Origin: an uncultured Bacteroidota bacterium
GTDB taxonomy: Bacteria; Bacteroidota; Bacteroidia; B-17B0; Aurantibacillaceae
Direction of reading: 5' to 3'
NCBI GenBank assembly: GCA_937868545.1
Contig: CALMMX010000031.1
Span: forward strand, 1 to 38,799
Length of the DNA stretch: 38,799 bases
In this document: positions 3,328 to 38,799 of the stretch, one piece after another
Position numbering within the stretch: position 1 is the stretch's first letter
Layout of the letters: every line of letters begins with the position of its first letter
Made by a program: the position numbers and the translations under genes
The notes under the pieces: model-generated
Database searches by the model: none
The model's input: only the letters and a program-made list of their open reading frames with translations
What the model was told of the DNA's origin: nothing

Positions 3328-5955
3328 TTAATTAATTTTAGGTTTTGAGAAATAATTTAAAGTATTATATAAATTAAAAAAATGTTTCATTCGTTTTGAA
3401 AAAGAAATTTGTGATTTTACTTTCTTAATAAAAGAATCATAAAAACTTTGTATATCGTCAGCTTCGGTAGAAGACAAAGGCGCTTTACTGTATTTAATTT
3501 TTTGATACATAGTATTAAATGTTACCAATGAAGTATTAAACTGTTTATCAATAAACTCAGCATATTCTTTTGATCCCATTTGTTGATAAGAATAACCCAT
3601 TTGATTAAGGTAATATAACATTGCTCTATAAGAATGATACGCTTTTATTTTTGTAATTGGCCGTTGCTTTTTTGCTTTAGCATTTAACCATAACCAAATT
3701 AACCAAGGGCTAAAAACTAACAGTAATAAACCTAAACACACAGCTATTAAAATCCCATATAATACATTTAGCCAATTGATGGGTTCATCTTCTTTTTGTT
3801 TTTCATCTTTTGCCAATTTATTTTTATCCTCTTTGGTAATAATTTTTACTTCATCAATTGGAATTGGGATAGGTAATTTTTTAATTACTGATTGTAATGA
3901 ATCATGAGGTTTTGCAAAAATAGTTTTTAAAACCTCGGCATGAGAAATAGCTGTAACGTGGGTGCCTTTAACTAATAATTTTAATTTAACCTCTCCCGTA
4001 TCACTTGTAATTCTAGCTAATGAAACATCATTTAAAGTTATTGTTTTTGATAATGATACAAACTCACTATCGTGATACAGGATTTTTCTAGTACTTATAG
4101 TTACTAATTTTTTAATGGTGTCAGTATTTTCAACTTCCCCATCAATTACTAAATAGGTTGCTGGTACGTCTGTTGGAGGTGTGCCATCTGGTTGAGAGGC
4201 TTGTTGAGTATTAATATCAGGAACAGTGGTATCAAAATCTATCCAACCGTACCCTTGAAAATACACTTGAACCCATGCATGTGCTTGATCTTGATAAAAC
4301 CAATACCAACCAGGATTTTTACTACTTCTATCAGTAATAGAATAACCTGCTACTAACCTAGAAGGAATACCTAATGAACGCAACATAAATAATGTTGCTC
4401 CAGCAAAATAAGCACAATACCCTTTTCTGTTTTCAAATAAAAAATAGTTTAATTTGCTAGCACTCGGAATACCAGGTACACCAGGGTTATCAGAGTATTT
4501 ATACAAAGGTTGGTTAAACTCGTCTTTACTTAAAAAATAATCTCTTAAGGCTATTATCTTATCAATTGGTGCTAGCTCGTTGTGCGTAATAGAATCGGCC
4601 AATTCATAGATTTTATTATACTCAGTATTTGTAGGCATATAAGTATAGTAATCCATAAATTTCTTATCTGGACCAACAATTTTCTTTACCTGACGCAGTT
4701 TTTCAAATCTCAGTTCTTGAAACATTTCTAAATCTCTGTTACCCGCAGGATTATAAATAAAATATGCACTGTTTAATTCGCTAACCCACATTTTAGCAAC
4801 ATACGCACTTTTATACTGTTCCTTAAATTCTATTGGTACCGAAATTGGCTGACAATAATAAGCAGTAGAAGGCGCTAAAAAACTTTCGGGAGAAAGATTT
4901 ACTGCATAAACTTCGGCCGTTACAACCTTTCTGTTTTCGGTAGCCAACGATTTTTCAATAATTGTATTATCCGTTTTTTTGAAGTAGAGTGGGATTTGCG
5001 AAGGGTCAACATTAAACAAATCGTTATAAGGCATTTGATCATCAATTTCAAATGTTTGAGTAGCAGTGTCAAATTTAGTATAGTAATGTGATGTAAAATA
5101 AAGTGGATTTGGAGTAGTACTATTTTCGAAATAATTATCAAGCTTGGCAACAAAAATTAGTTGTTTATCCTTACTTAAAGAACCAGATAATTTTGATTGA
5201 TCTTTGTTTGAAACTCCACCACCTTTCCCTTTTTTGGTCATAGATTCTCCACCACCCTTACCTTTATTTTCAGAAGATTTTGCTCCACCCCATTCTTTTT
5301 CAATTGCTTTAAAATTTCCTTTTAATAAAGTGAGTACAGCAATAAATAATATGAGTAAAACTAATGCAAAAGCGCCTAATCTTTTTGTTATAAACCAAGT
5401 AAAACGCGTTTCGTTTTCATTTATATTTCTAATAAGTTCTGTAGTATAAATAATATAAAACGAATAAACCAAAATAGGTACTATTCCTCCTAACAATGCA
5501 TTAACAGTAACATCTGCAGTTTTACTTATAAGTATTATTTCGCAAATAAGTAAAAGCACACTCCAACCAATGGTAATGTATTTTGAACGACTAAAACCAA
5601 AACCTACTACCCAACCTATTGTAAATAATAAACTAAAAATGTAAAACTTAACTGATACATAAAAACTATCAAACTCGCCTATACTAATGTTTTGAAGAAC
5701 TTGATAGATTATATAGTTAACTGCAATAACAATGGCTGTAGTAGTTATAAATCTAATACGGTATTGGTATATTATTACTGATAAAAAACAACCTATTGAA
5801 AAATAAACTCCTTGTGATATCCATTCGTTTTGAAGAATAGAATAGAAATTATTTAAACGCCATATTACAAAACAAGCAAATACAGCAGTTGGAACAGCTA
5901 ATAATATTAGTTGAAACAGTGCTTTTTTTAAACTATGTTTTTTTGCTATGCCCAT
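3328..5955 (-). CDS. TgpA-like membrane transglutaminase-family protein
   Basis: An 875-residue integral membrane protein. Residues 1-215 hold about six hydrophobic segments. A Gly/Lys-rich linker (about 222-250, with GKGGG repeats) precedes a large extracytoplasmic region containing a transglutaminase-like core. That core has the Cys-His-Asp triad: C514 in RKGYCAYFAG, H559 in QAHAWV and D575 in WIDFDTT. One more transmembrane segment follows (about 735-760). The cytoplasmic tail resembles the DUF4129 domain usually found at the C-terminus of TgpA proteins. TgpA-type proteins are thought to act on envelope proteins or peptides; the substrate here is unknown. It lies between the DUF58 and MoxR genes, 6 bases and 1 base away, so all are probably co-transcribed. 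Confidence 0.9.
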   Translation of the reverse strand: MGIAKKHSLKKALFQLILLAVPTAVFACFVIWRLNNFYSILQNEWISQGVYFSIGCFLSVIIYQYRIRFITTTAIVIAVNYIIYQVLQNISIGEFDSFYVSVKFYIFSLLFTIGWVVGFGFSRSKYITIGWSVLLLICEIILISKTADVTVNALLGGIVPILVYSFYIIYTTELIRNINENETRFTWFITKRLGAFALVLLILFIAVLTLLKGNFKAIEKEWGGAKSSENKGKGGGESMTKKGKGGGVSNKDQSKLSGSLSKDKQLIFVAKLDNYFENSTTPNPLYFTSHYYTKFDTATQTFEIDDQMPYNDLFNVDPSQIPLYFKKTDNTIIEKSLATENRKVVTAEVYAVNLSPESFLAPSTAYYCQPISVPIEFKEQYKSAYVAKMWVSELNSAYFIYNPAGNRDLEMFQELRFEKLRQVKKIVGPDKKFMDYYTYMPTNTEYNKIYELADSITHNELAPIDKIIALRDYFLSKDEFNQPLYKYSDNPGVPGIPSASKLNYFLFENRKGYCAYFAGATLFMLRSLGIPSRLVAGYSITDRSSKNPGWYWFYQDQAHAWVQVYFQGYGWIDFDTTVPDINTQQASQPDGTPPTDVPATYLVIDGEVENTDTIKKLVTISTRKILYHDSEFVSLSKTITLNDVSLARITSDTGEVKLKLLVKGTHVTAISHAEVLKTIFAKPHDSLQSVIKKLPIPIPIDEVKIITKEDKNKLAKDEKQKEDEPINWLNVLYGILIAVCLGLLLLVFSPWLIWLWLNAKAKKQRPITKIKAYHSYRAMLYYLNQMGYSYQQMGSKEYAEFIDKQFNTSLVTFNTMYQKIKYSKAPLSSTEADDIQSFYDSFIKKVKSQISFSKRMKHFFNLYNTLNYFSKPKIN

Positions 5956-5961
5956 TTAAAT

Positions 5962-7320
5962 TTATATCACCATTGATTTAGATGATTGTTTCATTAATTT
6001 TTTTAAATTGTTTTCGTTCTCTACTATTTTAAAGCGTAAAGTGGATAAATTCCATTTTGTTTTATACGCTTCCATTTTATCGTTTTCATTTTCTAAAAAC
6101 ACCCACTTAATCCAATCTTTAAGCTTGTTTTCATCTAAACTATCCGATAATTTAATAAATAGAATAGAAATATCTGATCCAAAATTTTCAACAAACTCTT
6201 TTACTTGATCACTATTACTTAAAGATGAAACTATAAGCACTGATGTGTTTTGCGTTTTTACAAAATCTTTTATTTCAACACCATTTTGCCAATTGCTTAC
6301 TGCAATATTATAATTAACTCGCTCTGTTTCTTCAGTAATTTCGGTATGAGGCATTACCACTTGATCAGATAGGTATTTAACTTCAAATCCTTTTTTTGAA
6401 AGCTCTTGGTAAACCGACCAACACATGGTTTTATAATAATTTAAAAAATGATCCTCAATTATATCATTTCCAGCAATATTAAAATCACAAAAAAACGACG
6501 TATACAAATAAACATGAGAAGCATAAGGATCCATTATTTCTGGAATACGAACAACAAGCTCTTTGTTTTTTGCATATATTTTCCAAACAATGCGCCTTAC
6601 ATCATCATTGTTTTCAAAGTTTTTGTAATTTATTAATTCTCCTTCTACACGTTTTAATTCATCAATTCTAATGCTTGTGTCTTCAGTTTTTCGTGGGGAA
6701 AAAGACATAGTACTTAAATTTTCTTGAACCGGTTTTACATAAAACCTATTAGTAGTATTTACCGAAGTGGCAAACGAAAAAAATTGAAAAAAGTCTTCGA
6801 AATAAATTACAAGTTTCTCAACTTTATACTCTCGTATTTGTGGTAAATTCCAATTGAACTCTCCGTCAAACGCTAAATTAAACAAACTGTTTTTGTTTGA
6901 AATGGGCGCAAATTTATCTGAATAAAATTCTTTATCGTATAATACCCTTACTTTAACAAACCCCATTAATGGGCGTAATAGTGGGTTTATATGAATTGAT
7001 AATAATTTGCTTTTAAAATTAGATTGTGTCTTATTAGAAGTTTGAATATTAATTTCAACTTGTTGCTTTTTTATTTTATAATAGAAATATACAAATGAAA
7101 TTAAAACCGATACAAATCCTAAACACAAAATAGCTACACAAAAAATAATTACAATATATAATATAAGGCTTAAGATGTCTTTGTAAGCAGAATCAGGAAG
7201 CTTGGTTAAACTTTTTAACCAAATATATCCTGGAATTACACAAGCTATAAATACAAGCAAATAAAATGTAATGGGAATAAAATACCCAATTTTTTTTATG
7301 CCTTTAAGTAATTTATTCAT
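5962..7320 (-). CDS. DUF58-domain membrane protein
   Basis: The N-terminus has two transmembrane segments (about residues 10-32 and 48-80). The DUF58 signature follows at about 225-260, reading YKNFENNDDVRRIVWKIYA and then KELVVR, which matches the family pattern of a Y-x-x-G/E-D-D-x-R-x-I-x-W-K block. DUF58 proteins are VWA-like partners of MoxR ATPases. I chose the ATG at 7320 (MNKLLKG). A GTG fifteen bases upstream (7335, MEYKHMNK) is an in-frame alternative. It is the first gene of the four-gene operon running to 293. The 3' neighbour starts 6 bases after its stop. Confidence 0.9.
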   Translation of the reverse strand: MNKLLKGIKKIGYFIPITFYLLVFIACVIPGYIWLKSLTKLPDSAYKDILSLILYIVIIFCVAILCLGFVSVLISFVYFYYKIKKQQVEINIQTSNKTQSNFKSKLLSIHINPLLRPLMGFVKVRVLYDKEFYSDKFAPISNKNSLFNLAFDGEFNWNLPQIREYKVEKLVIYFEDFFQFFSFATSVNTTNRFYVKPVQENLSTMSFSPRKTEDTSIRIDELKRVEGELINYKNFENNDDVRRIVWKIYAKNKELVVRIPEIMDPYASHVYLYTSFFCDFNIAGNDIIEDHFLNYYKTMCWSVYQELSKKGFEVKYLSDQVVMPHTEITEETERVNYNIAVSNWQNGVEIKDFVKTQNTSVLIVSSLSNSDQVKEFVENFGSDISILFIKLSDSLDENKLKDWIKWVFLENENDKMEAYKTKWNLSTLRFKIVENENNLKKLMKQSSKSMVI

Positions 7321-7634
7321 GTGCTTGTATTCCACTAAATTTAATTATAAATTACATACAAGCCAAATAATCATTTCAAAAATTAATGATCAGAAATTAC
7401 AGCAGTTTTTTCTACTTTCTTATGGCGAATTAATAATACAAAAGTGTTCTTAGTATTGTGTTTTTATTAATACTGCTCTACAATAAGCAAAGAAATAAGT
7501 AAAAAGCTCGTTGATAATAAAATCAATCTGAAAAACAAATAATTTTGTTACATAAAAATGTATTTGTTTTATATTATTATACAAAAAATGACAAATGTTT
7601 GCTTTATGGTTTAATTATGATATACCTTTGTAGT
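7321..7634. promoter_or_regulatory. Divergent intergenic region, DUF58 operon and exporter operon
   Basis: This 314-base stretch has no convincing gene. On the plus strand it carries two Bacteroidota-type -7 boxes: TAATTTTG at 7540-7547, and TACCTTTG at 7623-7630 with TTTG at 7598-7601 upstream. On the minus side I see no good TAnnTTTG box for the DUF58 operon. An upstream in-frame extension of the adaptor gene to 7545 exists but is unlikely to be translated, because the signal peptide starts at 7635. Confidence 0.5.
7598..7630 (+). promoter_or_regulatory. Bacteroidota-type promoter for the exporter operon
   Basis: TTTG at 7598-7601 is followed after 21 bases by TACCTTTG at 7623-7630, fitting the -33 TTTG and -7 TAnnTTTG consensus of the Bacteroidota primary sigma factor. 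The -7 box ends only 4 bases before the ATG at 7635, so transcription would begin at or next to the start codon. Confidence 0.6.
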
Positions 7635-8711
7635 ATGGCAATTAAGCATATTTCATTTATATTATTATTGGCTTTAGCTAGTTGTAAATCTAAAACCGAA
7701 AAAACCAAACCAACAACTGAAACTATTTCAGAGTCTATTTATGCCTCAGGAATAGTAAAAAGTAAAAATCAATACCAAGCTGTTTCAACAGTTAATGGTA
7801 TTATAGAAACCATTTATGTTACAGAAGGTGACTCTATAAAAATTGGAACCCCCATTTTATTAATTTCAAACGAAGCACAACGTTTAAATAAAAACAATGC
7901 CATTTTGGCTTCAGAATATGCAGATGCGAATGAAAACAAAGGAAGATTAAACGAAGCGCGCTTGTTTATTGACCTAGCAAAAAACAAAATGAAAAACGAC
8001 TCGCTTCAATTTTTTAGACAAAAAAACTGATGGCAACAAATAATTGGAACACAAGTAGAACTTGAACAAAGAGAATTAGCCTATCAAAACTCGAAAACAA
8101 ATTACCTTTCTTCTATTGAAAAATACAATGAGTTAAAACGACAAATAGATTTTAACTCTTCACAATCTAAAAACAACCTGCTATTATCAAATAAACAAGA
8201 AAACGATTTCATTTTAAAAAGTGAAATTAATGGCGTAGTTTATAGCTTACCTAAAAACAAAGGTGAAATGGTAGGGCCGCAAACACCTATAGCAGTAATT
8301 GGTGATGCAAAACACTTTATTTTAGAAATGCAAGTTGATGAATATGATATACTAAAAATAAAAAAAGGATTGCCTGTTGTTGTAACATTTGATAGTTACA
8401 GAGATCAAGTTTTTGAAGCTAAAATTTCGAAAATAAATCCTATAATGAATGAAAGAAGTAAAACATTTTTAGTAGAAGCTGAATTTGTTAAACAACCCGA
8501 AACACTGTATCCAAACATAAATTTTGAAGCAAGTATTGTAATTACAACTAAAAGTAATGCCTTACTAATTCCTAGAGCCTATTTATATAAAGATTCTATT
8601 GCAATAAAAAGTAATGGCGATAGTGTAAAAGTAAAAACTGGCTTAAAAGATTATCAAAAAATTGAAATTCTTTCAGGCATAAACGCTACTGATGAACTTA
8701 TAAAACCATAA
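7635..8711 (+). pseudogene. MacA/HlyD-like lipoprotein adaptor, interrupted by in-frame TGA
   Basis: This would be the periplasmic adaptor (membrane fusion protein) of a tripartite ABC exporter. It starts with a lipoprotein signal peptide whose lipobox is LASC. A biotinyl-lipoyl-like half-motif follows (VNGIIETIYVTEGDSIKIG), then a coiled-coil hairpin, the second lipoyl half (SEINGVVYSLPKNKGEMVG) and beta-barrel domains (QVDEYDILKIKKGLPVVVTF). The frame is open from 7635 to 8711 except for one TGA at 8028-8030, inside the hairpin between KN and WQQ. One base change (for example TTA to TGA) would explain it, and the downstream part shows no further damage. It could be a recent nonsense mutation, a sequencing error or read-through. 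The permease gene starts one base after the stop, so the operon is otherwise intact. I chose ATG 7635 because it opens the signal peptide. Confidence 0.85.
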
Positions 8712-8712
8712 A

Positions 8713-9972
8713 ATGAATTATAAACTCGTATTTAGCGTTTCACAGTCACTACTACTTGCACGTTGGAAACAAACGTTAGTTGCTGCTATTGGCGTTACGT
8801 TTAGCATTACCATGTTTATAACGCTTCTTAGCTTTATGAGTGGTTTAAATGATTTACTAGATGGGTTAATTTTAAACAGAACACCCCATATACGATTGTA
8901 TAATGAAATTCTTCCCTCTAAAAAACAACCCATAGAAAAAGATGAACATTATAAAAAACAATATAATTTTATTAGTTCCGTAAAACCTAAAAGCGAACGA
9001 CTAGAAATTTACAATAATGCTAGTATTATTAAAACTCTAAAAAAAGACGCGAGAGTATTGGGTGTTGCGCCGCGTATTACAGCACAAGTATTCTATAATG
9101 TAGGGTCAATTGATTTAACAGGTGTAATTAATGGTGTAGATGTAGAAGCAGAAAACAGATTGTTTTCCTTTAAAGATTACGTAACCAACGGAAACTTTAT
9201 TGATTTAAAAAATATTCCTAATAGTATTATTCTTGGTAAAGGCGCGGCTCAAAAGATGTTGGCTAACATTGGAGATGTAATACAAGTTACAACAGTAAAA
9301 GGAGAGCGTATGCAGCTAAAGGTTGTTGGTTTTTTTCAATCGGGCTTACAAGACATTGATAACATACAAAGTTATTCATCCATAAACACTACTCAAAAAT
9401 TACTTGGAGAAAGCAATAGTTACGTTACCGATATTCAAATAAAATTAAAAGATATTTTACTTGCACCCCAATTATCAAAAGAATATGCAAACATTTTTGA
9501 TGTTGAGGCAATAGATATTCAAACAGCAAATTCGCAATTTGAAACAGGTAGCTCTGTGCGATCTCTTATTTCTTATGCGGTTGGTATTACTCTCTTAATT
9601 GTAGCTGGTTTTGGAATTTATAACATCTTAAATATGATGATTTACGAAAAAATGGATTCCATTGCTATTTTAAAAGCAACAGGGTTTTCGGGCAAAGACG
9701 TAAATTGGATTTTTATAACAATAGCATTAAGTATAGGAATATTTGGGGGCATACTCGGCCTCTTGTTCGGTTTTGGCGTGTCATCCTTAATAGATCAAAT
9801 ACCTTTTAATACTGCAGCCCTGCCTACAATTAAAACCTATCCAATAAATTATAATCCAAAGTTTTATATGATTGGCGGAATATTTTCAATTGTAACAACT
9901 TATTTTGCTGGGTATTTCCCATCGCGCAAAGCAAGCAAAATTGATCCAGTAATAATTATTAGAGGAAAATAA
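8713..9972 (+). CDS. MacB/FtsX-type ABC transporter permease
   Basis: A 419-residue permease of the FtsX/LolE/MacB class. One transmembrane helix lies near residues 20-42. A large periplasmic domain (about 45-280) follows, then three helices near 285-310, 330-357 and 385-405, ending in the typical FPSRKASKIDPVIIIRGK tail. The loop IYEKMDSIAILKATGFSG matches the cytoplasmic coupling region of FtsX-domain proteins. It is flanked by a lipoprotein adaptor and an ATPase with 1-base gaps, the standard arrangement of a MacAB-like exporter. The substrate (drug, peptide, lipoprotein or siderophore) cannot be told from sequence. No TolC-like outer membrane gene is present here. Confidence 0.9.
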   Translation: MNYKLVFSVSQSLLLARWKQTLVAAIGVTFSITMFITLLSFMSGLNDLLDGLILNRTPHIRLYNEILPSKKQPIEKDEHYKKQYNFISSVKPKSERLEIYNNASIIKTLKKDARVLGVAPRITAQVFYNVGSIDLTGVINGVDVEAENRLFSFKDYVTNGNFIDLKNIPNSIILGKGAAQKMLANIGDVIQVTTVKGERMQLKVVGFFQSGLQDIDNIQSYSSINTTQKLLGESNSYVTDIQIKLKDILLAPQLSKEYANIFDVEAIDIQTANSQFETGSSVRSLISYAVGITLLIVAGFGIYNILNMMIYEKMDSIAILKATGFSGKDVNWIFITIALSIGIFGGILGLLFGFGVSSLIDQIPFNTAALPTIKTYPINYNPKFYMIGGIFSIVTTYFAGYFPSRKASKIDPVIIIRGK

Positions 9973-9973
9973 T

Positions 9974-10654
9974 ATGAGCAATATAATATTAGAGGCTAAT
10001 AATATCACTAAGTTTTTTCATGATCCTATAAGTATTCAGGTATTAAAAGATATTAGTTTTTCAATTAATAAAGGAGAGTTTATTTCTGTTATTGGAAAAT
10101 CAGGTTGTGGAAAATCAACCTTGCTATACATCCTATCAACAATGGATACTGATTATGAGGGTGATTTAATAATTGATGGCATCAGCATGAAATCAAAAAA
10201 AGAATCAGAACTAGCAAAAGTTCGTAACGAAAAAATTGGTTTTGTTTTTCAATTCCATTATTTATTAAACGAATTCTCTGTATTAAAAAATGTAATGTTG
10301 CCAGGTTTAAAATTAGGCAAACTCTCAGAAAAAGAAGTTGAACACAGAGCTTACGAAAAACTCAAAATTTTAGGCGTTGAAAACGAAGCGCTTAAAAAAC
10401 CAAACCAATTATCGGGTGGACAAAAACAACGTGTAGCAATTGCTCGTGCACTTATTAATGACCCCTTAATTATTATGGGTGATGAACCAACAGGAAATTT
10501 AGATAAAAAAAACAGTGAAATAGTTTTTCATACATTTCAAGAATTGGCACAAACATACAATCAATCATTACTTATTGTTACACACGATAACGAGTTTGCA
10601 GCTAAAACAAATCGTATTATTGAAATGGAAGATGGAAAAATAATTAAAATGTAA
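9974..10654 (+). CDS. LolD/MacB-type ABC transporter ATPase
   Basis: A 226-residue nucleotide-binding subunit with Walker A GKSGCGKS (residues 41-48), a Q-loop at [17 protein letters not shown], signature LSGGQ (146-150), Walker B LIIMGDE (165-171) and the H-loop VTHD. The motif set and length place it in the LolD/MacB/FtsE group that pairs with FtsX-type permeases. It starts one base after the permease gene and is the last gene of the export operon. All key residues are intact, so the ATPase itself should work even though the adaptor gene upstream has a nonsense codon. Confidence 0.95.
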
Positions 10655-32964: not shown

Positions 32965-32998
32965 CAAAGCTATCTGTTTAATTTAAACAGATAGCTTT
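32965..32998 (-). terminator. Terminator of the channel operon with embedded -7 box
   Basis: On the minus strand AAAGCTATCTGTTT pairs with AAACAGATAGCTTT (14 bp) around a 5-base AT loop, and is followed by GTTTTTTT. The distal arm plus the next base reads TAGCTTTG (32972-32965), an exact TAnnTTTG box placed 10 bases before the 2H phosphoesterase ATG, so the same bases may end one transcript and start the next. Confidence 0.8.
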
Positions 32999-33018: not shown

Positions 33019-34923
33019 TTAATCTTCAGCAACTACTATAATAAAATCTTCCTCGTTATAAGTAATTGTACTTGATTTTGTAGGGTTAATATTTACTCCA
33101 AAATGTTTATCAGAATCTGCGCTTAATGATGAAATACGGTATCCTATAGCGGTTTCACCTAATTGAGCAGCACTTTCTAATACAGTATAAAAATTAACAG
33201 GTTGGCCCGTTTTTACATAATGGCTAACTGGTTTTAAATAAATTTCAGAACCTTCAGCTTCGAATAAAATGTCGTATACTTTTTTCAAGTCTTTATTTTC
33301 ACTTAATTGACTTAGCATAAGTGATATTAAATTATCGCTTACAATAAAATCGTCGGCCTTAGCAACTACGCCTAAATCACGGTTACGAATGTCAAGCATT
33401 TCAGATACAATACTATAATCTTTGTTTGCCAACTCACTTAAGTTACGAAGGTGTAACAAACATATTAATGTTTTAGCATCACTTTCTTGTACATCAATAT
33501 CTTTATAGCTTAATAAAATTATGTGATCAAACGTTTCGGTTTTTAAACTAACTAATGTGGCTTTGTCATTAATATCACCTGTTAAAAAACTAATTTTTTG
33601 CTTTTCTAAAGACGCACTTAATTCTTTTACTTCGTCAGCTATAGTATCACCTTCAGCTAAAATTGTAACACTAGATCCGGTAGCAACATAATTATCTAAT
33701 TCCTCAATAATACGAGAACCTCTTTCGTTCCAACCAAGTATAAGAGTTTTTTCAACGGTTGCATAAGTTTGCGAAACACGATTAAATAAGGCTTCTTTAA
33801 TATCAAATGTTTTTTTCCCACTTAATTTAATTGTATCATCGTCTTCAGAAATAGCAATAACACGATCACCAACGTTAAAAACAGTATCCATACTTGGATT
33901 AATTAAGGCTTCTTCCCCTTTAGTTAAAATACCTAAAACAGCAGAGTTTTCATACGAGAAAACAACATCTTTATAAGTTCTTCCTGTTAGTTTTGGTTCT
34001 GATTGAAAATAAATTTCATCACCTTCAAACTGTAAAATTTCGCTATAAACAACACTTAACCCAGACTGACGACAAGTTTGCGCAGTAATACGAGAAATTA
34101 AATCAGATGATAAAACAAAAACCGTTTCGTTGTTACCAACTAAATCTGCAGCCTCCATATTTTTTGGGTCTTTTATTTCGGCAACAATATTAAACTCTTC
34201 TTTTTTACGATTTTTACCGTTAGTTAATGCTAATACGGATTTAATTACATAAGTATCTGCATTTGCTTCATCGTTAGCTAATACAATAATAGAGCGTGCG
34301 CCATTAGGATTAACAACTGCAATAGCAGAAGACTCTAAAGGATTTCCACTTCTTACAATTATTTTAGTGTTTTTAAAATTATCAATCTTAGATCTAATCT
34401 CATCTTCCATTTCGCCTTTATCTCTATCGGCTAAAATAACAATGCTTGGTTTTTTTTGATTAGAGTTTGCTTCAATTATTTCTAATATAATAGAAAACAC
34501 CTTTTCTGACCAACCTAAAATTAATGTATGGTTGCTTTCTAATACGCGAGAACGACCTTTTTTTAATTCATCTAACTTTTCGTCGATACCAGAAGAAATA
34601 GTACCAATTAAAATTGATATTAAAAATATACCACCTAGTGTAGCTATAAATCTAACTGAACGAAAAGCCCAGCCTTCATCGCCACCCATAGTTCCAGAAT
34701 CTAAAGTTGCCATTAAACTTTGCCACGCACCTTCTATAAATCCTAAATTTTCGGCATCTGCTTCTGGTGAACTTTTAATTCCAAATATTAGGATTACAAC
34801 GCCTAATACTAATACCATAAATAAAGAAATTAGTGCTAGCCACTTAATAACACCCGCTGGACCAGCAGACATTGTATTTTCGAAATAATAGCGAACTTTT
34901 TCGCCAAAGGTTGGTTTTTGCAT
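33019..34923 (-). CDS. CASTOR/POLLUX-like ion channel with RCK domains
   Basis: A 634-residue membrane protein. The first transmembrane helix (about 25-48) and a pore-like re-entrant region (AWQSLMATLDSGTMGGDEGW, 66-85) are followed by a second helix (about 90-110). Two tandem RCK/TrkA-N-like cytoplasmic domains begin at HTLILGWSEKVFSIILEI (132) and at KTLILGWNERGSRIIEEL (about 392). The sequence around the pore and the first RCK domain matches plant CASTOR/POLLUX and their bacterial relatives. RCK domains bind nucleotides or ions and gate the channel. Ion selectivity cannot be given, because the pore lacks a classic TVGYG filter. It is 22 bases downstream of the Spo0M-like gene and probably co-transcribed with it. 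Confidence 0.88.
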   Translation of the reverse strand: MQKPTFGEKVRYYFENTMSAGPAGVIKWLALISLFMVLVLGVVILIFGIKSSPEADAENLGFIEGAWQSLMATLDSGTMGGDEGWAFRSVRFIATLGGIFLISILIGTISSGIDEKLDELKKGRSRVLESNHTLILGWSEKVFSIILEIIEANSNQKKPSIVILADRDKGEMEDEIRSKIDNFKNTKIIVRSGNPLESSAIAVVNPNGARSIIVLANDEANADTYVIKSVLALTNGKNRKKEEFNIVAEIKDPKNMEAADLVGNNETVFVLSSDLISRITAQTCRQSGLSVVYSEILQFEGDEIYFQSEPKLTGRTYKDVVFSYENSAVLGILTKGEEALINPSMDTVFNVGDRVIAISEDDDTIKLSGKKTFDIKEALFNRVSQTYATVEKTLILGWNERGSRIIEELDNYVATGSSVTILAEGDTIADEVKELSASLEKQKISFLTGDINDKATLVSLKTETFDHIILLSYKDIDVQESDAKTLICLLHLRNLSELANKDYSIVSEMLDIRNRDLGVVAKADDFIVSDNLISLMLSQLSENKDLKKVYDILFEAEGSEIYLKPVSHYVKTGQPVNFYTVLESAAQLGETAIGYRISSLSADSDKHFGVNINPTKSSTITYNEEDFIIVVAED

Positions 34924-34945
34924 TTTTTTTGTTTTTATTGATTAC

Positions 34946-35371
34946 TTATAAAATAAAAAGGTCATTAGTTTTAGATGGGTCTAAGCCTGGTACATCTATA
35001 GATACTTTTAGTTCGTGTTTATATGGATGTCCAGTATTCATTGCACTTGTAGAAACGGGCAATTCAAAATCAAATTCCATTGTTGTACCTGGTTTTAATA
35101 ATTCATCATTTTTTTGAATTTGAATTTTATTAACCGTGTTTTTAATTTCTTTATCTACCATTTTGTTTAATGTATCACTCCATTCTCTTCGAGTTAAAAC
35201 TTCAACATGTTCAATTAAGAAAAACTTTACTGGAGTTTCTTTTGTGCCAGCAGTTGCAACTACACGACCTTTAATTGATTCGCCTCTCTTAATTTGGTTA
35301 CTTTGTAAAGTAAAATCTACTTTAGGTTGACCTATACCAACCGCTGCTTTAATTTTGTCGAATAATCCCAT
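34946..35371 (-). CDS. Spo0M/arrestin-like protein
   Basis: A 141-residue protein that looks like the N-terminal arrestin-fold half of the Spo0M family. MGLFDKIKAAVGIGQPKVDF at the start and the beta-sandwich strands (GESIKGRVVATAG, TTMEFDFELPV, HELKVSIDVPGLD) fit that family. The protein is about half the length of Bacillus Spo0M, so it would be one arrestin lobe, as is common in Bacteroidota relatives (from memory). It has no signal peptide and should be cytoplasmic. Its job is unknown. The close pairing with a channel gene suggests that it regulates or localises the channel (inference). Confidence 0.75.
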   Translation of the reverse strand: MGLFDKIKAAVGIGQPKVDFTLQSNQIKRGESIKGRVVATAGTKETPVKFFLIEHVEVLTRREWSDTLNKMVDKEIKNTVNKIQIQKNDELLKPGTTMEFDFELPVSTSAMNTGHPYKHELKVSIDVPGLDPSKTNDLFIL

Positions 35372-35415: not shown

Positions 35416-35423
35416 CAAAAATA
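35416..35423 (-). promoter_or_regulatory. -7 box (TATTTTTG) for the arrestin-channel operon
   Basis: TATTTTTG on the minus strand fits TAnnTTTG and lies 44 bases before the Spo0M-like ATG. The -33 region has a T run but no exact TTTG. It is the best candidate in this short intergenic region. Confidence 0.4.
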
Positions 35424-35524: not shown

Positions 35525-37816
35525 TTAAATTTTTACTCCAATAATCAACACATCATCTACTTGTTCTAAGTTACCTTTCCAAGAAATGAAAGTTTGTTCT
35601 ATTTCATTTTTTTGACTCATTAAATCTAAATCTACATTATTTAACAATAATTCATTTAGTGATTTATATTTAAACTTTTTTCCTTTTGGCCCACCAAATT
35701 GGTCTGCATAACCATCAGTATATAGAAATAAAGTATCATTCTTTTCTAACTCAATTGTATAAAGTGTAAAATCTAAGTTTTTTTCACCTTTTCCAACAGG
35801 CATTCTGTCCTTTTGCAATTCTATAATTTCATTTTTTTTAATTAAAACAGGAGCGTTATTTGCAGCAGCATATTCAATTGTTCTATTGTTTTGTTCTAAA
35901 CAAATTAAAATTCCATCCATACCATCTTTTTGACCACCCTCACTTATTGTAGAAATTAATCGATTTCTAACATAATTAAAAATTTCATTTGGTTTTTCAA
36001 TGTTTTTCTCTTTGATTGCCTCACTTAAAAAACCCATGTTTAATAAACTCATAAATGCGCCAGGAACACCATGGCCGGTGCTATCACAAACCGCTAAATA
36101 AAATTTATTATTATGTTTTGTTGCCCAATAAAAATCACCACTTACAATATCTTTTGGATTAAAGTAAATAAGATTATTAGATATATTAGAATTTATAAAA
36201 TCGGAGTTGGCTATTAATGCATTTTGTATTCGTTTAGCATAGTGTATAGAGTCTAGGGTTTCTTTTTGATGTTCTTCAACTATTTCTTTTTGTTTTTGTA
36301 GTTCTGATTTTTGTAGTTCAATTAATAGATTTTGTTTCTTAGATATTTTTAATCTGTTATACAAAAATGCTCCAAATAAGCCTATTAACAAAATCCCTCC
36401 ATATAAGGCAAAACGTTGTGTTTTTTCTTGTTTTAATTGGGCATTTGTTACCTTCTTTTCTTCAGCAACTTTTACACTATCAGCAGTAGATTTTTTTTCG
36501 TATTCATATTTTACCATAGTTTGTATACTTGCCTTTTCATTTGCATTATTATACACACTATCCGACATTTGTTTAAATACTACTTGCATTTCAAATGCTT
36601 TTCTAAAATCATTTTGTTTTGAATAAATGTGGCTTAATATTTCACTTGAATTTTTTATTAATAAAGGATAACCTATAGTATTTGCAATTTTAAAACTTTC
36701 TTCTGCATTAGTTTTAGCAGTTTGTAGATCCCCAGTTTCAAATTTTAGGTTAGCAATTTTATTTAAAATATCAACAACTCCATTTTTATTTTCTATTTTT
36801 CTATTAATATTTAAACTTAAATTAAAAAAATTTAGCGCTTCTTTAGTTAGTGAATCTTTGAATTTTATGTTGTTTTTTGTTTTAGATAATATTTCATAAA
36901 GGCTTCCTAAATTACTATAAGTATTACTTATTCCTATATTCTCTTCATACTCAATTTGAGTTATGAGTACTTTTTTATAATTGTTTTCAGCGGTTTTTAA
37001 TAAGACAGCAGCCTCATCGTATAATTTTTCTTTTTCTTTTTCTTCTGCTTCTTGAATTAAAATAGAATTAATGTTATTTAATGAAGTAAGTGAGCCAATA
37101 ATATCGTTACCTTCAATTTGAAGTTTATTGCTTTGATGGTAGTATTCTTTGGCTTTTTTATTGTTACCTTGTTTTTGGTAAAGCTTAGCAATATTATTAA
37201 GACAAGCCGCAACACCTATCTTATCATTTATTTGGTTTCTAATATTTAAACTTTTATGAAAATATTCAAGTGCTAATTGAATATTACCTAAATCGTCATA
37301 TATGTATCCAAGATTATTATACGATCGGCCAATACCAACTTTATCTTTTAATTCTAAATATATTTTTAAACTTTTATTATGATATTCAAGTGCTTTTTGA
37401 ACATTTCCAATGTTTAAATATACTGTTGCAATGTTGTTATAAATTGTGGCTATTCCGTTTAAATTATTAATTTTTTTTTGGAGTTCTAAGCTTTGTAAAT
37501 ATAAATTTAAGGCTTTATCTGATTCATTATGCATGTTAGCTAAATAACCATCATTATTTAATGTTTCGGCTAAATATTTAATAAAAATGGGGTTGGATGT
37601 TTTTTTAAGATTATCTAGAGTTATTACTTTTAGTTTATTATTATAAATTGGCCAAATTTTATCGTCGTATTCAGATTCAATAAGCAAAAAGAGTATTCGG
37701 CATTTAACAGAATCTTGATTTGCTTTTTTTAATTGAATTTTTAAAGAATCAAGGTAAGGTAATTGAGCATAACAATTAAAATATATAAAAATTAAGGCAA
37801 GTACAATTCTCCTCAT
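35525..37816 (-). CDS. TPR and SpoIIE-family phosphatase, membrane bound
   Basis: A 763-residue protein with a signal peptide (1-17, ending CYAQ). A periplasmic TPR array (about 80-410) has canonical units such as ATVYLNIGNVQKALEYHNKSL and GYIYDDLGNIQLALEYFHKSL. One transmembrane helix (about 470-486) and a coiled coil (about 490-520) follow. The C-terminal PP2C-like SpoIIE domain carries the metal-binding acids SGDFYW, CDSTGHGVPGAFMS, YTDGYADQFGG and VDDVLIIGV. It should dephosphorylate a cytoplasmic serine/threonine phosphoprotein in response to a periplasmic signal. The next gene upstream encodes a paralogue with the same C-terminus and is only 4 bases away. No anti-sigma or STAS partner is in the window. 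Confidence 0.93.
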   Translation of the reverse strand: MRRIVLALIFIYFNCYAQLPYLDSLKIQLKKANQDSVKCRILFLLIESEYDDKIWPIYNNKLKVITLDNLKKTSNPIFIKYLAETLNNDGYLANMHNESDKALNLYLQSLELQKKINNLNGIATIYNNIATVYLNIGNVQKALEYHNKSLKIYLELKDKVGIGRSYNNLGYIYDDLGNIQLALEYFHKSLNIRNQINDKIGVAACLNNIAKLYQKQGNNKKAKEYYHQSNKLQIEGNDIIGSLTSLNNINSILIQEAEEKEKEKLYDEAAVLLKTAENNYKKVLITQIEYEENIGISNTYSNLGSLYEILSKTKNNIKFKDSLTKEALNFFNLSLNINRKIENKNGVVDILNKIANLKFETGDLQTAKTNAEESFKIANTIGYPLLIKNSSEILSHIYSKQNDFRKAFEMQVVFKQMSDSVYNNANEKASIQTMVKYEYEKKSTADSVKVAEEKKVTNAQLKQEKTQRFALYGGILLIGLFGAFLYNRLKISKKQNLLIELQKSELQKQKEIVEEHQKETLDSIHYAKRIQNALIANSDFINSNISNNLIYFNPKDIVSGDFYWATKHNNKFYLAVCDSTGHGVPGAFMSLLNMGFLSEAIKEKNIEKPNEIFNYVRNRLISTISEGGQKDGMDGILICLEQNNRTIEYAAANNAPVLIKKNEIIELQKDRMPVGKGEKNLDFTLYTIELEKNDTLFLYTDGYADQFGGPKGKKFKYKSLNELLLNNVDLDLMSQKNEIEQTFISWKGNLEQVDDVLIIGVKI

Positions 37817-37820
37817 AAAC

Positions 37821-38799
37821 TTAAATTTTTACTCCAATAACCAACACATCATCTACTTGTTCTTGTTTTCCTTTCCAAGTTCTAAATGCCTTGTCTAAAC
37901 AATCTTTTTGCTCTTCAATTTGTAGATGTGAATTTGCAATTAAAACATCTTTTAGTTGATTGTATTTAAATTTTTTTCCTTTTGGGCCTCCAAATTGATC
38001 TGCATAGCCATCAGTATAAATAAACACACAATCATCTTTTTGTAATTGTATAGTGTGGTTTGTAAATACATCGGCTAAACCATCAGTATTACTTCCAATA
38101 GCGAGTTTGTCTGATTTTATTTCAAGTAAGTCGTTATTATAAAATGTTTCTTTAGAACTAGTGATGGCATATGTATTTGCGATGTTTTTTCTTACTACTA
38201 ACATTGAATTAAATGCCCCGGAATATTGTAATGTAAGAGTTTTATAATCTAAATTACAAACCGCTAAATCCATACCATCCTTTACCGCACTTGGGTCGTA
38301 AGATTGGCGTAAGGTAGAGTTTACACCTATATCTAAGTATTGTAATATTTCTGATGGAACACTTAATCCCTTATCTTGAACCGCTTGATTTAATAGTTTT
38401 AATCCAATAACACTCATCATAGCACCAGGAACACCGTGGCCAGTGCAATCCACAGCTGCAAATAGAACTGAACCATTAATTTCATCAACCCAATAAAAAT
38501 CACCACTTACAATATCTTTTGGCCTGTAGTAAACCATACTTTTTGGAAGTAATGATTTTACATGGTTATTAGTAGGAATTATTGAAAGCTGAATTCTTAA
38601 GGCATATTTAATACTATCTGTAATTTCTTGTTCTTTATGTTTGAGTGCCGCGGTTCGTTCTTCAACAATTTTTTCGAGCTCAATTTTTGCGTTTTTTAAA
38701 CGTCGGTTATTTATTTTAAAACTTAATACAATTGATAAAAAAATCAGGCAAGCCATACCAACAATTAAAAAGAAGTTAGAATACGATATGGTTAAAATA
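37821..38799 (-). CDS. SpoIIE-family phosphatase, 5' end beyond window
   Basis: The frame stays open to the right edge, so the gene is partial: the visible part lacks the true start. It encodes a transmembrane helix (IVGMACLIFLSIVLSF), a short coiled coil (NAKIELEKIVEERTAAL) and a complete SpoIIE/PP2C phosphatase domain with SGDFYWVDE, DCTGHGVPGAMMS, YTDGYADQFGG and VDDVLVIGV. It is a close paralogue of the next gene (35525-37816); their 3' ends are almost identical at DNA level. The missing N-terminus is probably a sensory or TPR region. The two genes lie 4 bases apart and likely form an operon. Confidence 0.9.
   Translation of the reverse strand, partial: ILTISYSNFFLIVGMACLIFLSIVLSFKINNRRLKNAKIELEKIVEERTAALKHKEQEITDSIKYALRIQLSIIPTNNHVKSLLPKSMVYYRPKDIVSGDFYWVDEINGSVLFAAVDCTGHGVPGAMMSVIGLKLLNQAVQDKGLSVPSEILQYLDIGVNSTLRQSYDPSAVKDGMDLAVCNLDYKTLTLQYSGAFNSMLVVRKNIANTYAITSSKETFYNNDLLEIKSDKLAIGSNTDGLADVFTNHTIQLQKDDCVFIYTDGYADQFGGPKGKKFKYNQLKDVLIANSHLQIEEQKDCLDKAFRTWKGKQEQVDDVLVIGVKI

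Follow-up and report, generated by a model that had tools for sequence, protein, structure and literature searches.

The window, by which we mean the whole 38,799-nucleotide stretch of DNA analyzed here (an uncultured Bacteroidota bacterium, contig CALMMX010000031.1), carries on its minus strand an arrestin-fold gene directly ahead of an ion-channel gene. The arrestin-fold gene, of the Spo0M N-lobe type, occupies positions 34946-35371 (141 aa, ATG start; ORF reading and PF07070). An intergenic gap of 22 bases (34924-34945) separates its stop from the start of a CASTOR/POLLUX-type channel gene at 33019-34923 (634 aa, ATG start; PF06241 and CASTOR RCK matches). Open reading frames, the shared strand and Pfam matches bear out the preliminary description of a 141-residue arrestin/Spo0M-like gene 22 bases 5' of an RCK channel gene, and both family assignments rest on scores above the curated cut-offs. 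An intrinsic terminator, consisting of a hairpin and a T run, lies 3' of the channel gene (32966-32998, minus strand); it is as strong as had been described, with a 15-pair hairpin of -18.4 kcal/mol (z -5.7) that none of 200 shuffled sequences equals. The proposed promoter box did not hold up in the same way. TATTTTTG, a possible Bacteroidota -7 box, is present at 35416-35423 on the minus strand, 44 bases 5' of the arrestin ATG, but the TANNTTTG pattern is at chance level (55 occurrences in the window against 82 expected), and none of its three matches with an upstream TTTG element in the window lies ahead of the arrestin gene; the box is weak and not above chance. On the same strand, 153 bases upstream of the arrestin gene, lies a gene for a TPR-SpoIIE (PP2C-type) phosphatase of 763 aa (35525-37816; Pfam TPR_12 5.1e-42, SpoIIE 1.2e-18). 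It is the first, TPR-bearing member of two tandem SpoIIE-phosphatase-like genes on this strand (35525-38798), the second of which is similar by sequence reading and reaches the window end. Searches with a phage-protein library gave no match, and in a defence library the channel alone had a single, weak hit (E 0.005).

The small protein scores 38.6 bits against the Spo0M family PF07070 (curated cut-off 23; E 1.2e-9), and this match spans profile positions 1-100 of 213 only. A profile of the window arrestin and its relatives (A3) matches the Spo0M structure 5cl2 at E 3.9e-6. The AF2 model, computed from a five-sequence alignment and of moderate confidence (mean pLDDT 62), predicts an all-beta lobe; the short helix placed at its N-terminus is of low confidence. 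Its top fold match is to residues 13-133 of 5cl2 (Z 12.4, rmsd 2.7, 119 aligned); further matches are the N-lobes of VDUP-1/TXNIP and ARRDC3, and chain J of the ARRD-6/TMC-1 structure 7USY is also among them (Z 10.5). At this pLDDT the comparison with 5cl2 indicates an arrestin beta-sandwich lobe. A second (C) lobe was not found: the protein has 141 residues against 246 in the structure, of which only 13-133 are matched. The half-length profile match and the fold match together thus identify the window protein as one arrestin lobe, and since the C lobe is lacking we class it as a one-lobe relative of Spo0M rather than as Spo0M itself. Spo0M of Bacillus subtilis (PF07070, 5CL2), the best fold and profile match through its N-lobe, differs in having two lobes and about 250 residues; the partners reported for it in the literature consulted are division and signalling proteins. 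The function of bacterial arrestins is little known, and PMC2515105 offers no more than a guess at a transmembrane signalling role for Spo0M.

The channel matches Castor_Poll_mid (PF06241) at 106.6 bits (curated cut-off 26.7; E 7.9e-31) and, also above curated cut-offs, Slo-like_RCK and TrkA_N. It matches solved CASTOR/DMI1 RCK structures with a best E of 3.5e-63 (6o6j) and aligns with plant CASTOR over both gating-ring halves, in stretches 121-496 and 502-600, so that PF06241 and a tandem RCK arrangement occur in the same protein. Hydropathy gives two hydrophobic segments (19-residue windows 20-38 and 87-105). The pore motif LDSGTMGGD places the filter Asp at D75, which corresponds by motif to CASTOR D265, and the filter is of the non-TVGYG kind with the conserved Asp that marks CASTOR/POLLUX channels (ADS/AGNHA). 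D-x-G was found in 25 of 32 channel loci by a pattern that demanded an acidic residue and G and did not catch the remaining 7. Residues D252, E303, E360, D361 and D362 align with the CASTOR Ca2+ ligands D442, E493, E552 (backbone), D553 and D554, and K254 stands in place of D444; this comparison covers these six of the ligands named in PMC6697748, which also lists A342, S345 and further Ca(I) ligands, and it uses a shift of 309 in chain numbering that we derived from the residue pattern. According to the same study, nodulation was abolished when D442 or E493 was mutated, but not when D444 was. Judged by these residues, the window channel is probably Ca2+-regulated and Ca2+-permeable. CASTOR, POLLUX and DMI1 of legumes share with it the tandem RCK gating ring, the filter aspartate and several of the named Ca2+ ligands, but they belong to the plant nuclear envelope, whereas the window protein is bacterial and has K254 for D444. 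The literature consulted on them mentions no arrestin partner.

Across 87 genomes of the window's order, we found the arrestin-channel adjacency in the window genome only. The channel is matched in 14 of these genomes and is full-length or nearly so in 10, the window included; the nearly full-length channel of G057 ends at residue 598 at a contig end, the channel of G001, outside these ten, stops at residue 455, again at a contig end, and G066, G070 and G081 hold fragments or remnants. A single-sequence search found the arrestin in 2 of the 87 genomes and a five-row profile in 10; the candidate in G017 was dropped as unconvincing (E 1e-3, inside a 1513-residue frame). Directly before the channel, the order's other genomes never have an arrestin gene but varied genes instead, which in six of seven g3 genomes read, by sequence, as a DPP4-type peptidase. 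Six g3 genomes have both genes, with channel and arrestin on different contigs. Their arrestins end in the tail GNDPDSGW and group in the tree with other such rows at 100/99 support. We rejected this co-occurrence as support for the pair because it involves another arrestin type, other contigs and near relatives; the g3 arrestins are counted only in the co-occurrence figures given below for the class and by genus, which take all arrestin types. Being adjacent in 1 of 87 genomes, the two genes are not a fixed two-gene unit.

Two genomes of the window's genus, G070 and G081, match channel residues 1-162 and 599-634 only. Their decayed channel genes (L018 in G070, 1489-2043; L019 in G081, 1501-2065) both lack the middle, which suggests a shared deletion. 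As read from ORFs, the remnant has a clpP-like gene on one side and, on the other, a methyltransferase-like and a LigT-like gene; clpP-like and LigT-like genes adjoin the channel in the window too, in a different order. Since the remnants sit amid the same neighbour genes, the channel seems, on this sequence comparison, to be old at this place and decaying in the sister genomes. An arrestin beside the channel at this place is known from the window genome only.

In a class-wide survey of 395 genomes, the channel occurs in 24 (E 1e-30; one of them, G333, carries a fragment), the arrestin in 17 (profile A1) and both in 9. With any arrestin type counted, CASTOR genes are present in 9 of the 17 arrestin genomes versus 15 of the 378 others (p 4e-8); by genus the co-occurrence is 6/13 versus 8/184 (p 5e-5). 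Divergent arrestin/CASTOR-type pairs, 198, 202 and 207 bases apart, were found in G099, G142 and G178, which are all three genomes sampled of their family and form one genus. These three are the only ones with an adjacent arrestin among the 30 channel loci beyond the window (L008-L017 and L033-L052), as searched with arrestin profiles on ORFs of at least 70 residues in all frames within roughly 1.5 kb to either side, or as far as the contig reached; this count leaves out the channel fragments L053 and L054 (G333 and the second G178 piece) and the fragments or remnants L018-L023. The arrestin itself is sporadic, with 13 of 395 genomes in the phylum sample, 1 of 3 in the order of G116, 6 of 46 in that of G452 and 1 of 45 in that of G291, and a plasmid search with the G818 arrestin gave no match. 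At a separate locus (L114 in G050, 7481-10102), a gap of 27 bases separates a CASTOR-type channel gene from the co-directional Ion_trans/Ion_trans_2 channel gene behind it.

Related arrestins also adjoin voltage-gated channel genes (PF00520, E 3e-40 to 1e-54) in four genomes, G291, G116, G818 and G452, which represent three genera because G452 and G818 share one. All four pairs are co-directional. The channel comes first in G291, with the arrestin 47 bases on; the arrestin comes first in G116 and G818, followed by the channel gene after 108 and 13 bases, respectively. The arrestin is also first in G452, where its frame is broken and the channel intact, so that it may be dispensable there. Broken arrestin frames occur at L095 (G452, 5850-6318) and L122 (G817), and no voltage-gated channel was seen beside the latter. 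In G116 a CLC gene lies 123 bases before the arrestin, so that three genes, for a CLC chloride channel, the arrestin and a voltage-gated channel, follow one another on one strand (L093, 4994-8392). The adjacency is thus not confined to the window genome, with CASTOR-type pairs in three further genomes and voltage-gated pairs in four; the neighbourhood survey that the preliminary description called for shows recurrence outside the window's order and no second instance among its 87 genomes.

The filters of the four arrestin-linked voltage-gated channels read TLEDWTD in three cases and TGEDWTD in one, so EDWTD is found in 4/4 linked channels versus 2/8 comparable channels without an arrestin neighbour. 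We take the linked channels to be prokaryotic one-domain voltage-gated channels of the BacNav/CavAb class, and their acidic EDWTD-type filters presumably resemble those of Ca2+-selective bacterial channels. Among the matches listed, 11 Ion_trans matches span at least 714 bases (picked by eye); three of these (G452, G116 and G291) adjoin an arrestin and the other eight have none beside them. The Ion_trans genes at L133, L134 and L138 likewise have no adjoining arrestin and no match to the filter pattern. Ion_trans genes are not enriched in arrestin genomes (9/17 versus 158/378, p 0.25). Unlike the genomes with voltage-gated pairs, the window genome (83% complete) has no PF00520 match at E 1e-10 among the matches listed.

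The window-like and EYTTGRG arrestin types together make up 16 loci beyond the window (G068, G047, G291, G116, G162, G452, G099, G142, G178, G201, G818, G808, G814, G812, G817 and L001); a channel gene adjoins the arrestin in 7 of them, versus 0 of the 22 loci whose arrestin is of another type. All seven channels detected in the arrestin-centred stretches are direct neighbours, out of 118 ORFs, other than the arrestins, that reach 100 residues; the 22 other-type loci have no channel among 189 ORFs. These searches used three query channels only and would miss other channel kinds, and the stretches differ in length, some ending at contig ends. The arrestins of G047, G452 and G817 were counted from profile searches, ORF calling having taken an antisense ORF or the frame being broken. 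No channel neighbour is present in 9 of the 16 loci, including four of the six from the G452 order. By genus, with G452 and G818 taken as one, 4 of 10 lineages are channel-adjacent; G818 is not an independent draw, since the G452 and G291 orders were chosen for searching on the strength of pairs already known from those two genomes. The binomial chance of 4 in 10 genera is about 3e-8 at 5 channels per 3000-gene genome and ranges from 4e-11 to 4e-7 for 1 to 10 channels, which is no more than a guide, since it treats the genera as independent and assumes the gene number. By this rough estimate, arrestin-channel adjacency recurs beyond chance across two channel superfamilies. On the arrestin tree the channel link needs four changes, and the well-supported branches alone permit one origin. 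The window arrestin is only 22-29% identical to the linked arrestins aligned with it; in the tree it pairs with L001, but the branches are long and the grouping is weakly supported (84/62), which leaves its closeness to the linked arrestins unsure.

Our preferred reading, which we put forward tentatively, is that the small protein is an accessory regulator of a cation channel and that its partner in the window is the CASTOR-type, probably Ca2+-regulated and Ca2+-permeable channel; we infer their binding from the genes. Animal arrestins bind the cytoplasmic faces of membrane proteins. A one-lobe arrestin in the cytoplasm would most likely dock on the cytoplasmic side of the channel, at the gating ring or the membrane face, and with its predicted N-terminal helix it could rest either against the RCK ring or next to the pore at the membrane. 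Once docked, it would tune the gating or the placement of the channel. Related arrestins would serve the EDWTD-filter voltage-gated channels in other Bacteroidota, and the signal might be supplied by a TPR-SpoIIE phosphatase or by a TPR histidine kinase with a LytTR regulator. In favour of this reading are the channel-adjacent arrestin loci with partners from two unrelated channel superfamilies, the EDWTD filters of the linked voltage-gated channels, the co-occurrence of CASTOR genes with arrestins, the filter Asp and Ca2+ ligands kept in the window channel, and a worm parallel. Against it count the single adjacency in the window's order, the nine comparable loci that lack a channel neighbour, the sporadic spread of the arrestin, the low identity and unsure tree position of the window protein, the absence of Ion_trans enrichment and the broken arrestin frame in G452. 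A bolder version, which we regard as unlikely, makes the bacterial arrestin an auxiliary subunit that Ca2+-type channels of two unrelated superfamilies (RCK/CASTOR and voltage-gated) can use interchangeably. It would link signalling by TPR-phosphatases or TPR-kinases with the entry of Ca2+, in a prokaryotic module that predates or parallels the animal TMC-1/ARRD-6.

The nearest known case for a bacterial arrestin-channel pair is this worm complex. According to PMC9605866, C. elegans TMC-1 carries the arrestin ARRD-6 as an auxiliary subunit (7USY); ARRD-6 sits on CALM-1, a cytoplasmic subunit, and one of its edge loops putatively enters the membrane. The idea in common is an arrestin-fold protein as ion-channel accessory; the worm complex differs in being eukaryotic, in its two-lobe arrestin, in binding via CALM-1 and in a channel unrelated to that of the window. 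A bacterial precedent was not found in the open-access literature (most subscription journals lay outside its scope), in keeping with the earlier impression that such a unit was undescribed. The adjacency of related arrestin genes to channel genes in several other bacteria suggests that arrestins may partner ion channels in bacteria, as in a worm. Because arrestin genes lie repeatedly beside genes for channels whose filters are of the Ca2+ type, these channels offer a concrete candidate partner for bacterial arrestins; if true, arrestin control of ion channels would extend to bacteria, and Ca2+ signalling in bacteria could be approached through a small, soluble protein.

The arrestin might instead serve the upstream signalling proteins, or general membrane or envelope stress, the channel being a mere co-member of the regulon, an explanation that we find doubtful. 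It draws on the TPR-SpoIIE gene upstream of the arrestin in the window and, at 103 bases, in G162, on the TPR histidine kinase and LytTR regulator upstream of the arrestin in G068 (L089), on the LytTR response regulator upstream at L001, and on the TPR-kinase/LytTR pair divergent from the arrestin-channel unit in G818 (L135). It also agrees with the binding of division and signalling proteins by B. subtilis Spo0M, in a paper whose main text does not use the word "channel". Against it stand the seven channel-adjacent loci outside the window, and the arrestins of G291, G116, G452 and G099/G142/G178 have no direct signalling neighbour as far as their ORFs are readable. TPR-SpoIIE, TPR-kinase and LytTR genes are common in Bacteroidota, and for that reason the signalling-neighbour link is the weaker half of the picture.

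It strikes us as rather improbable that a rearrangement brought the two window genes together by chance, with no functional link. Such an origin would fit the single adjacency in 87 genomes of the order, the separate contigs in the six g3 genomes and the same-genus remnants in G070 and G081, which have a methyltransferase-like gene, not an arrestin, beside the decayed channel. The close co-directional spacing and the intact frames of the two genes speak against it, as does the fact that arrestin and channel genes are neighbours again in four other genera. A role in general membrane-protein trafficking or clustering, akin to a septum role of Spo0M, with the channel as one cargo among many, is very improbable: Spo0M is reported at the poles and septum of B. 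subtilis and co-precipitates with FtsZ and ZapA, but the recurrent genes among the arrestin neighbours listed are cation channels, one CLC gene (G116) and signalling genes, with no division genes.

One further arrangement concerns another arrestin type. At L066 (G283), L070 (G397) and L068 (G225), its gene lies close to a gene for a protein of about 160-170 residues, which starts with MTDLIALDE in two of the three and possibly forms a separate conserved pair with the arrestin.
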